DNA of 64,000 bases from the NCBI GenBank assembly GCA_003228175.2, contig QGNQ01000010.1, positions 1 through 64,000 of the forward strand. Reading direction: 5' to 3'. This document shows positions 41,164-53,949 of this stretch, piece after piece. Made by a program: the position numbers and the translations under genes. Every line of letters starts with the position of its first letter. The first letter of the stretch is position 1. This DNA comes from Chloroflexota bacterium. Lineage in GTDB: Bacteria > Chloroflexota > Dehalococcoidia > Bin125. Below the pieces are notes generated by a model that saw only the letters and a program-made list of their open reading frames with translations, was not told where the DNA came from and did no database searches.

Positions 41164-41213
41164 ATCCTCAGGCCCTTCAGCGGCCTCGGTTGAGCCAGGC
41201 GAAAGGAGCGCGC

Positions 41214-41882
41214 GTGCCGGGACTCGTTGTCGTCGCGCTAAGCGGGCCCACCCCCGACACGCCCTTTCTGCGTGAGCGCATCGCCGGGGCCTCACTGCGC
41301 ATCGCCGCCGACGCCGGCGCACAACGTCTCGCCGAACTCGGCCTCCAACCTGACCTCATCACCGGCGACTTCGACTCCCTGTCCCCACCCCAGCGCGAGG
41401 CCGCCGTCCGCGCTGGCGCAAAGGTCGTCCCACACCCCGACCCCCAGCAGATCACCGACGGCGGCGCCGCCCTGCGACTCGCCGCCCAGCGCGGCGCCGC
41501 CACCATCGTCGTCCTCGGCGCCCACGGTGGCGCCCGCCTCGACCACAGCCTCGCCAACCTCCTAATCCTCTTCGACCCCGCCCTCCGCGCGATCCCCGTC
41601 ATCGCCATCGACGGCTGGAGTGAGGCCGTCCCCCTCCACGCCGACGGCCAGCGCACCGCCAGCTTCAGCGGCCGCGCCGGCGACTACGTCTCCATCGTCC
41701 CCATCAGCGACCACATCCGCGTCACCACCCACGGCCTGCGCTGGCCGCTCCACAACGCCCCCCTCCAGCGCGGCAGCTCACACGGCCTCTCCAACGAGCT
41801 CACCGGCGCAGCCGGCGGCGTCACGCTGCACGCCGGCGCCGCCATCGCGGTGCACGTCGGCACCCCCTCCCCGTCGCGATAG
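41214..41882 (+). CDS. Thiamine pyrophosphokinase
   Basis: A 222-residue TPK that transfers pyrophosphate from ATP to thiamine. Conserved motifs are RIAADAGAQRLAELG, PDLITGDFDSL (the Asp-rich catalytic loop), ITDGGAALRLA where the family has a D-x-T/G pattern, and GAHGGARLDHSLANL. The C-terminal thiamine-binding domain holds GDYVSIVPIS and SNELTG. The GTG at 41214 has AAGGAG eight bases upstream. It supports salvage of thiamine or its precursors, in line with the importer at 19.5-23.5 kb. Confidence 0.9.
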   Translation: MPGLVVVALSGPTPDTPFLRERIAGASLRIAADAGAQRLAELGLQPDLITGDFDSLSPPQREAAVRAGAKVVPHPDPQQITDGGAALRLAAQRGAATIVVLGAHGGARLDHSLANLLILFDPALRAIPVIAIDGWSEAVPLHADGQRTASFSGRAGDYVSIVPISDHIRVTTHGLRWPLHNAPLQRGSSHGLSNELTGAAGGVTLHAGAAIAVHVGTPSPSR

Positions 41883-42021: not shown

Positions 42022-42384
42022 ATGCCTACCTACGAGTTCCAGTGCAGCAAGTGCAAAACGCGCTTCGAAGTCACCCGGCCGATGTCCAAAGCGGGCGACC
42101 CGGCCAAATGCCCCAAGTGCAAAGCCAAAGCCAAGCGCATCTTCGGCGCCGCCATCGTCGGCGTCGGCAGCGACTTCGACATGGGTGGCTTCGACATGCC
42201 GGATATGGGCGATATGGGTGACATGGGTGACATGGGCGGTATGCCGGACATGGGTGGCATGGGTGGCATGCCGGATATGGGCGGCATGGGCATGCCCGGC
42301 ATGGGTGGCATGCCCGGCATGAGCCACGGGCACGACCACGGCCACGACCACGGCCTGCCCATGAACGACGACTTCGGCTTCTAG
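42022..42384 (+). CDS. FmdB-type zinc-ribbon protein with Met/His-rich tail
   Basis: A 120-residue protein. The first 40 residues are an FmdB zinc ribbon with Cys8/Cys11 and Cys30/Cys33, starting MPTYEFQCSKCKTRFE. The rest is extraordinary: residues 54-100 contain 16 Met at mostly three-residue spacing among Gly and Asp (GDMGDMGDMGG pattern), followed by HGHDHGHDHG with five His at 102-110. Met- and His-rich tails of this type bind Cu(I), Ni(II) or other metals in metallochaperones. The tail is encoded by a nine-base DNA repeat. NiSOD genes follow on the other side of the terminator, so a nickel or copper role is a testable guess. Confidence 0.85.
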   Translation: MPTYEFQCSKCKTRFEVTRPMSKAGDPAKCPKCKAKAKRIFGAAIVGVGSDFDMGGFDMPDMGDMGDMGDMGGMPDMGGMGGMPDMGGMGMPGMGGMPGMSHGHDHGHDHGLPMNDDFGF

Positions 42385-42436
42385 CCCCCAGCCCCGTATA
42401 ACCCCCAGCCCCGCAAACCCACAGCCCCGCAAACCC

Positions 42437-42467
42437 AAACGGGCGGCTGCAGTGCAGCCGCCCGTTT
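42437..42467. terminator. Bidirectional terminator between fmdB-like and sodN genes
   Basis: Two perfect 15-base arms, AAACGGGCGGCTGCA and its complement, surround a single G. Both ends give A/T-tailed stems, so it can serve the convergent genes on both strands. Confidence 0.8.
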
Positions 42468-42491: not shown

Positions 42492-42926
42492 CTACTTCTT
42501 CGACTCCCAGAAGAGGTCCGCGAACTCCTTCGTCTTCGCGCGCAAGTCCGCCGCCGACGCCGCATCCACGTTCTGCTTGTTCGCCCCGGCCAGCTTGACC
42601 AGGTTCCAGACCATCTCATGCAGCTGCGGGAACTTCTCCACATGCGGCGGCTTGAAGTAGTCGCCCCAGATCACCAGCACCTCACGCTTCAGGATCTCCG
42701 CGTGCTCCTCCTTGACCGTCACATAGCGGCTGAACGAATTCCGCCACGCCACCGACCCATCGTCCGCGCCCAAGTCAGCGATCACCGCCACCATCTTCTC
42801 CACCGTCTGCGCCGCGATCTCCGCCGCGTGCGGGTCATAGATCCCGCACGGGATGTCACAGTGCGCGTACGCCACCCGGCTCGGGCGCAGCCATCGACCA
42901 ACCTGATCCGTCCAGTCCGTCTGCAT
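42492..42926 (-). CDS. sodN: Nickel superoxide dismutase precursor
   Basis: A 144-residue NiSOD. The nickel hook HCDIPCGIYDP begins at His22, with Cys23 and Cys27 as thiolate ligands; residues 1-21 form the propeptide that must be cleaved to free the His22 amino group. The remaining helices (VEKMVAVIADL, HAEILKREVLVIWGDYF) match the four-helix subunit. ATG 42926 is chosen because GGAGGA lies six bases upstream; longer frames upstream lack such a site. The processing peptidase gene sodX is divergent. Confidence 0.97.
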   Translation of the reverse strand: MQTDWTDQVGRWLRPSRVAYAHCDIPCGIYDPHAAEIAAQTVEKMVAVIADLGADDGSVAWRNSFSRYVTVKEEHAEILKREVLVIWGDYFKPPHVEKFPQLHEMVWNLVKLAGANKQNVDAASAADLRAKTKEFADLFWESKK

Positions 42927-43069: not shown

Positions 43070-43126
43070 ATGGAAATCCACCCAACCACAGCACACCCAA
43101 CCGCACCAGGCCGGGCCGCACCGTGA
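43070..43126 (+). CDS. 18-residue leader ORF coupled to sodX
   Basis: ATG 43070 has AGGAG seven bases upstream and opens MEIHPTTAHPTAPGRAAP, whose TGA stop overlaps the sodX GTG as GTGA. The sodX start has no Shine-Dalgarno of its own, so its translation may depend on ribosomes finishing this ORF. Two His residues are present, but the peptide itself need not be functional. Confidence 0.45.
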   Translation: MEIHPTTAHPTAPGRAAP

Positions 43127-43557
43127 CCGCCCGCATCCTCGCCCTCCTGGGCGCCCTCGCCGCGATCGGCACACTGCGCCTGACCCGCTCCTACCTCGTC
43201 GAGGGCGACTCCATGCGCCCCACCCTGCTCAACGGCGACTACGTCTCAGGCCTGCGCGCCCCGTTCCGTCGTCACCCCGCCTTCCTGGGCCCCAACGCCA
43301 TCCTCGTCGCCCGGCGCCCAGACCAGCCGCACCTGCCCATCATCAAACGCCTCGCCCGCCGCGAGCCCAACGGCCACCTCTGGCTCCTGGGCGACCACCC
43401 CGCCGCCAGCACCGACAGCCGGCACTTCGGCCCCCTCTCCCCCGCCACCGTCGAGGCCGTCGTCTGGCTGCGCTACTGGCCGCCGCATCGCCTCCGGCTC
43501 CTCGCCGGCCCCTTCCGCCCCCGCCCGGACGCCGGCTGGATCGACCAAATCCCTTGA
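43123..43557 (+). CDS. sodX: NiSOD maturation peptidase SodX (S26 signal-peptidase-like)
   Basis: A 144-residue serine peptidase of family S26 that removes the SodN propeptide. One N-terminal membrane helix (residues 4-24) is followed by the catalytic Ser30 in VEGDSMRPTL and the general base Lys75 in IIKRLARR, with LLGDHPAASTDSRHFG as the conserved late box. It is small compared with LepB, as in nickel-type maturation proteases. The divergent position next to sodN supports the assignment. Confidence 0.9.
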   Translation: MTARILALLGALAAIGTLRLTRSYLVEGDSMRPTLLNGDYVSGLRAPFRRHPAFLGPNAILVARRPDQPHLPIIKRLARREPNGHLWLLGDHPAASTDSRHFGPLSPATVEAVVWLRYWPPHRLRLLAGPFRPRPDAGWIDQIP

Positions 43558-44846: not shown

Positions 44847-46463
<1,617 letters not shown>

Positions 46464-53062: not shown

Positions 53063-53949
53063 TGGCCCCAGCGGCGAAGGCGCGCATGAATCAAACCGCG
53101 GCGAAGGCGCGCAAGAGCCCGCCAGCGGCGAAGGCGCGCAAGAGCCCGCCAGCGGCGAAGGCGCGCATCGATCAAACCGCCGCGAAGCCGCGCACGGATC
53201 GGCCAGCGGCCGGGAAGCGCAAGCGCGCAGCCAAACCACGCAGCGCCGCCCTCCTCACACCCGTCCACGTCATTGACCGGCTCGCCGCCGAGGCCCCACT
53301 CACCCCCCGGCGTCCGCACGGCGATCCCATCGTGGAGCTGGTCCTCACGCTGCTCTCGCAGAACACCTCCGACCACAACTCCGGCCGCGCCTTCCAGCGC
53401 CTGATCGACACCTTCCCAACCTGGGACGCTGCCATCGCCGCGCCCCTGCAAGCCGTCGAGGACGCGATCCGCATCGGCGGCCTCGCCAAAACCAAAGCGC
53501 CCCGCCTGCAAGCCCTCCTGCGCTCCCTCCGCGACCGCCTCGGCGACAATTGGGACCCAGCGCCCCTCAGCGCCATGTCCATCCCGGAGGCCAAAGACTG
53601 GCTCACCAGCCTGCCCGGCATCGGTCCCAAAACGGCCGCCTGCGTCCTCCTCTTCTCGCTCGGCCGGCCCGCCCTGCCCGTCGACACGCACGTCCATCGC
53701 GTCAGCCAGCGGCTGGGACTGATCGGCCCCAAGGTCAACCCCGTCGCCGCACACGACGCGCTCGAAGCGCAAATGCCGCCCCCCCACTACTACGACTACC
53801 ACGTCGCCGTCATCCGGCACGGGCGTCGCGTCTGCAAAGCCCAGCGCCCCCGCTGCGACGCCTGCGTCCTCGCCGACGGCTGCCCCAGCGCCTTCACCTT
53901 CGCCGACCTCGCAACTCCATCGCCGACACAGAAGCGCGCGCCCCGCTGA
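53062..53949 (+). CDS. nth: Endonuclease III-family DNA glycosylase with a basic repeat tail
   Basis: A 295-residue HhH-GPD glycosylase/AP lyase for oxidised pyrimidines. The helix-hairpin-helix LPGIGPKTAA holds the catalytic Lys190, the catalytic Asp208 is in VDTHVHR, and the [4Fe-4S] ligands are Cys258/265/268/274 with the usual 6-2-5 spacing. LTLLSQNTSD matches the start of the domain. The first 65 residues are an added tail of Lys/Ala/Pro/Arg repeats (AAKARKSPP pattern) encoded by 27-base DNA repeats, like histone H1 tails. It may add non-specific DNA binding. Confidence 0.92.
   Translation: MAPAAKARMNQTAAKARKSPPAAKARKSPPAAKARIDQTAAKPRTDRPAAGKRKRAAKPRSAALLTPVHVIDRLAAEAPLTPRRPHGDPIVELVLTLLSQNTSDHNSGRAFQRLIDTFPTWDAAIAAPLQAVEDAIRIGGLAKTKAPRLQALLRSLRDRLGDNWDPAPLSAMSIPEAKDWLTSLPGIGPKTAACVLLFSLGRPALPVDTHVHRVSQRLGLIGPKVNPVAAHDALEAQMPPPHYYDYHVAVIRHGRRVCKAQRPRCDACVLADGCPSAFTFADLATPSPTQKRAPR

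Follow-up and report, generated by a model that had tools for sequence, protein, structure and literature searches.

The window, a stretch of 64,000 nucleotides, lies on contig C9 of a Dehalococcoidia MAG of 2.45 Mb that is 85% complete. It carries, in this order, genes for thiamine pyrophosphokinase (TPK), an FmdB-like protein, nickel superoxide dismutase (sodN, convergent with fmdB), the NiSOD maturation protease (sodX, reading away from sodN), an HDOD protein and GroEL. The features concerned are these:

41190..41882, plus strand: thiamine pyrophosphokinase (PF04263), the immediate upstream neighbour in genera g1, g2 and g3.
42022..42384, plus strand: fmdB-like gene, 120 aa, zinc ribbon followed by a Met/Gly/Asp and His tail (PF09723, TIGR02605).
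42022..42144, plus strand: zinc ribbon, residues 1-41, with Cys 8, 11, 30 and 33 (Pfam match 1-41; pLDDT ~90).
42181..42321, plus strand: Met-rich stretch, residues 54-100, 16 Met, over a 9/27-bp DNA repeat; disordered in the AF2 model.
42325..42351, plus strand: His block HGHDHGHDH, residues 102-110, kept in 18/19 family members.
42367..42381, plus strand: C-terminal DDFGF; nearly all family members in the alignment have a DDF-type ending.
42437..42467, no strand: 14-bp hairpin between the convergent fmdB and sodN (RNA fold z-score -5.3), likely a bidirectional terminator.
42492..42926, minus strand: sodN, NiSOD precursor with a propeptide, then HCDIPCGIYDP (PF09055, TIGR02753).
43123..43557, plus strand: sodX, NiSOD maturation protease (S26), with Ser in GDSM and Lys in IIKRL (TIGR02754, 66.0 bits, cutoff 63.25).
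44856..46463, plus strand: groEL, a downstream neighbour kept in the family (PF00118).

The fmdB reading frame runs from an ATG at 42022 to a TAG ending at 42384. Its product matches FmdB/Zn_ribbon_8 clearly (PF09723, 52.4 bits against a cutoff of 34.4, E 5e-14) and belongs to the FmdB family by TIGR02605 (60.1 bits, cutoff 31.3), with the ribbon signature MPxYE(F/Y)xCxxC ... CPxC at its N-terminus. AlphaFold (AF2) gives a pLDDT of ~90 for the ribbon and ~50 after residue 41, and the tail beyond that residue is predicted to be disordered. Methionine recurs there at exactly every third residue from 59 to 89, with 16 Met within 54-100 and a 17th at residue 114; the five His (102, 104, 106, 108 and 110) lie in SHGHDHGHDHG, and the protein ends NDDFGF. 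A PDB search returned no relatives of this protein. The adjacent sodN product matches PF09055 (E 2e-45), scores above the TIGR02753 cutoff and has the Ni-hook HCDIPCGIYDP behind its propeptide. Together these profiles bear out the original prediction of an FmdB ribbon with a 16-Met, 5-His tail beside NiSOD. Its further claim, that the tail rests on a nine-base DNA repeat that may vary, also proved correct, as the repeat is real (TRF 42205-42321, period 9/27) and the tail measures 46-76 aa in different species.

The gap between fmdB and sodN is 110 bp. Since the two genes are convergent and separated by a strong hairpin, a shared transcript is not expected in the window. A search of the window for Fur-type boxes returned a single match, with two mismatches, where chance alone would give 1.9. 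Directly 3' of the fmdB stop codon lies a 16-bp tandem repeat of 3.2 copies (42385-42436); another, of 27 bp, occupies a coding-looking region at 53068-53223, possibly a Lys/Ala-rich histone-like tail. GroEL of the window and its relatives ends in APPMY or APAY and lacks the usual GGM tail; the nearby FmdB tail is GGM-like. The window opens, as does the contig, with 90 bases of almost pure C, which probably reflect an assembly or sequencing artefact.

The GTDB family (f1) comprises genera g1 to g5, mostly marine bacteria, and the tailed FmdB was located in 19 of its genomes. In g1 and g3, TPK is followed by fmdB, sodN, sodX and groEL in turn, with fmdB and sodN convergent and only sodN between fmdB and sodX. 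In g4 and g5, sodX follows fmdB directly, ~13 to 160 nt on, followed by groEL and, where the contig extends far enough, by pyk; sodN is elsewhere in the genome, and no sodX was seen near it in the loci read. When all 20 genomes of the family were scanned with TIGR02754, 18 had one full-length SodX, in each case at the tailed FmdB locus. Although most g4 sequences fall short of the curated cutoff, their Ser and Lys motifs are intact and there are no other candidates. The two exceptions are G019, which is fragmented, and G002 (79% complete), which has neither sodN nor a full sodX and whose FmdB has a reduced His block.

The SodN proteins of g4 and g5 belong to a different SodN clade from those of g1 and g3, whereas the SodX sequences of the family group together, with moderate support and one outside sequence intruding. 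Because of this difference, sodN appears to have been exchanged in g4 and g5 while fmdB-sodX stayed in place. The g4 and g5 SodN proteins (L134-L137), compared with that of the window (42492-42926), have a short propeptide, for example MSLFQTASA before HCDLPCG. Coupling of FmdB to the NiSOD protease is thus well supported, within one family. Part of the adjacency could be neighbourhood inertia, because TPK, groEL and pyk are retained too.

We then considered the class, searching 197 Dehalococcoidia genomes for FmdB with an in-frame HxHxH tail in three length ranges (one out-of-frame match, G443, was dropped) and scoring the same genomes for sodN and for COX1 as an aerobe marker. Outside the family, sodN was present in 16/19 tailed and 52/164 tailless genomes. 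Among COX1-positive genomes outside the family, these figures were 15/15 and 52/94 (p 4e-4); from the other side, a tail was present in 15/67 sodN-positive and 0/42 sodN-negative genomes. When genomes were collapsed to families, sodN was found in 6/6 tailed and 18/45 tailless families, and a tail in 6/24 families with sodN and 0/27 without it (p 0.0075), although families are not independent. This association of tail and sodN across the class is suggestive but falls short of proof, because of that non-independence, because the tails are on different paralogues, and because other traits may drive it. Urease was weighed as the true partner and set aside: it is clear in 9/197 genomes of the class, six of which have a tail. 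It may contribute to the association, but it leaves the family unexplained, since a clear urease is missing from 13 of 14 genomes sampled there; its enrichment with the tail fits a nickel theme rather than SodN alone.

Our lead reading, unproven and with a probability of about 0.38, is that the tailed FmdB carries a SlyD-like metal-holding tail that aids NiSOD maturation in this family by delivering nickel. A wider role as a general NiSOD partner was ruled out. At ~47 sodN/sodX loci read outside the family, in the class and the phylum, there was no FmdB within ~6 kb; beyond the class, a single tailed match (G123, frame unchecked) was obtained among 263 phylum genomes, despite a clear sodX in a few dozen of them. 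Moreover, 52/67 sodN-positive aerobes of the class have no such tail within the length range searched. With these two sets of observations, the tail is not a general requirement of NiSOD.

The most serious rival, only slightly less probable, is that the tail acts as a buffer for zinc or mixed metals in general, for storage or sequestration of Zn and Ni, not specific to NiSOD, and that sodX is adjacent through inherited gene order. When 85,000 genomes were scanned for FmdB proteins with an HxHxH tail, at least 80 matches were obtained. Those listed include many lineages and phyla, without sodN nearby, and RPWMIGH-type, HHHHH-type and other tails; among them, the only ones next to sodX or groEL are those of our family. 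FmdB proteins with His tails are thus common, and such tails probably arose repeatedly. Both genomes of family f117 (L301:3781-5541, L308:2251-4072) have a His-tailed fmdB in divergent orientation to the gene of a FUR-family regulator that adjoins znuA, a context that suggests a zinc (Zur-type) link for FmdB tails. Other fmdB genes, with His tails of varied make-up, lie in unrelated contexts, among them near dnaG or an rpoD-type sigma factor (family f2) or beside rpsB, for ribosomal protein S2 (L311, family f7). The f117 context in particular, with those of f7 and f2, makes a buffer a serious contender. Against it, the gene in our family stays with sodX even after the apparent exchange of sodN, the class-wide association with sodN survives the aerobe control, and the family loci examined showed no identifiable fur or znuA next to fmdB. 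Among the tails themselves, those of f7 (L311, L312, L313) have HPHPHPH-type ends, and FmdB proteins of Vicinamibacteria and Gemmatimonadetes (L195, L182, L151, L176) have a conserved-looking HEAxHHHHH end, apparently an independent His tail.

The predicted link to NiSOD therefore stands in part. The absence of such tails from all relatives with sodN had been named as grounds for refutation, and within the family FmdB proteins beside sodN do carry them. The tail is family-wide, remains linked to sodX, is reduced in the genome that has neither sodN nor sodX and co-occurs with sodN in the class, but FmdB beside sodN or sodX was never found outside the family. The many lineages with other neighbours, fur-znuA included, argue against a link of His-tailed FmdB to NiSOD alone.

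An unlikely alternative is that FmdB acts as a regulator or adaptor through its zinc ribbon, the acidic Met/Gly/His tail being a flexible interaction or chaperone-like segment and metal binding incidental. PHROGs names a relative as an FmdB-like transcriptional regulator, the tail resembles the GGM tails of chaperonins and lies near a groEL that lacks one, and the DDF repeats at the C-terminus are conserved. However, a Pfam search of the protein found no DNA-binding domain other than the ribbon, and the His block is both among the best conserved tail positions and the part that is reduced without sodN and sodX. Conservation in the family alignment centres on the His positions, on the Cys of the ribbon and on several Phe-Asp positions. 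All but one of the 19 genomes have an HxHxH block, the exception being G002, with two tail His in all and a single HGH, while the number of tail Met falls from 17 in the window to 0 in G003. Because of this difference, His rather than Met looks like the essential part of the tail.

The same comparison weakens the proposal, part of the original prediction, that the Met run forms a soft-metal (Cu+) site. Sixteen regularly spaced Met in the window protein would suit a Cu(I) chaperone or sink, but G003, of genus g3, has its fmdB beside sodN and keeps the His block, with six tail His and no tail Met, and no copper gene was seen alongside fmdB in the window. We consider this reading very improbable, and copper was dropped as the main idea.

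The tail is kept across five genera, and none of the FmdB paralogues read in the genome of the window has a His or Met tail. In 14 g4 genomes, with 0.44-0.49 synonymous differences per site, dN/dS was 0.053 for the tail and 0.129 for the zinc ribbon, so that purifying selection is stronger on the tail than on the ribbon. In three of the five His columns of the g4 block, CAC and CAT are exchanged without change of amino acid, and the Met columns show no variation other than a gap in two sequences. Since these paralogues lack such a tail and the tail is under purifying selection, it is not a product of chance; it is functional, whatever its repeat origin. That it is a functionless by-product of slippage in the nine-base repeat, as the tandem DNA repeat and variable tail length might suggest, is contradicted by this selection at high synonymous divergence and is barely credible. 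About 50 bp 5' of fmdB, most g4 genomes (L068-L085) have a near-identical GTCGTAAGATATGAC element with partly palindromic arms that overlaps a likely -10 box and is a possible operator.

Judged from its sequence, the window protein adds a new variant to the FmdB family, distinguished by a functional metal-type tail. It shares with that family (PF09723, TIGR02605) the N-terminal ribbon with two CxxC pairs, the small size and a variable C-terminal tail, but many relatives in the class have short Ser/Gly/Cys-rich tails, whereas in this subgroup the Met/His/Asp tail is conserved and the gene is linked to sodX. RPWMISH proteins (NF053663) also combine an FmdB ribbon, a linker and, often, a His-rich stretch; the window protein ends in DDFGF instead of RPWM(I)(S/G)H and, at 42.9 bits against a cutoff of 120, is not one of them. 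HypA (PF01155) likewise has a zinc ribbon, but the match is weak and below threshold (16.4 bits, cutoff 28.9) and the HypA N-terminal nickel motif is missing. The closest functional likeness is to SlyD: its unstructured tail, rich in His, takes up as many as seven Ni(II), and hydrogenase maturation depends on it (PMC7055735). Both have a disordered His-rich C-terminal tail on a folded domain, proposed to hold nickel for a nickel enzyme; the window protein is no SlyD, as it has no FKBP domain by Pfam, no Cys in the tail and a different enzyme as neighbour. For NiSOD, the protease is known, and cyanobacteria add a predicted transporter, SodT, in a sodN-sodX-sodT cluster (PMC4284471). There too a metal-supply gene is linked to sodN and sodX, but SodT, assigned to the UreH family, is predicted to be a membrane transporter for Ni, in contrast to a small soluble zinc ribbon here. 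Linkage of FmdB to the NiSOD maturation module extends throughout our family and is unseen at the loci read outside it.

The reading of nickel delivery to NiSOD starts from what was observed: the protein is present and conserved, its tail is under selection, the gene is coupled to sodX, the His block is reduced in G002, and tail and sodN co-occur across the class. FmdB would be a small zinc-ribbon protein whose disordered tail holds transition-metal ions, mainly through the HGHDHGHxH block. The tail would collect Ni(II), and probably also bind Zn(II) and Co(II); His tails as a rule discriminate poorly between Ni, Zn, Co and Cu. It would keep Ni(II) available near SodN at the moment when SodX cleaves the propeptide and the HCxxPCG hook becomes free; the zinc ribbon and the C-terminal DDF peptide would serve for docking, in contact with SodN or SodX. 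In work by Eitinger (2004, cited in PMC3919588), Prochlorococcus NiSOD is said to have been active in E. coli once its protease was co-produced, which counts against a need for FmdB. A stronger form, in which an FmdB paralogue gained the tail, became coupled to sodX and serves as a dedicated soluble nickel donor to whichever SodN is present, is a candidate that we regard as rather doubtful.

Named nickel chaperones exist for urease and hydrogenase; we know of no established route of nickel to NiSOD inside cells, and the literature searched yielded no soluble NiSOD chaperone and nothing relevant linking FmdB to NiSOD or Zur. FmdB proteins are very widespread and, to our knowledge, have no established biochemical role. 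If such a dedicated donor exists, NiSOD would have a type of soluble accessory that the literature searched does not describe, and the comparable tails found on other FmdB paralogues in the class would represent parallel solutions. The His-tailed FmdB tied to sodX thus offers one short, testable candidate for both the nickel supply of NiSOD and the role of FmdB, and a His-tailed FmdB is found together with sodN in Tepidiforma, some members of which are in culture.
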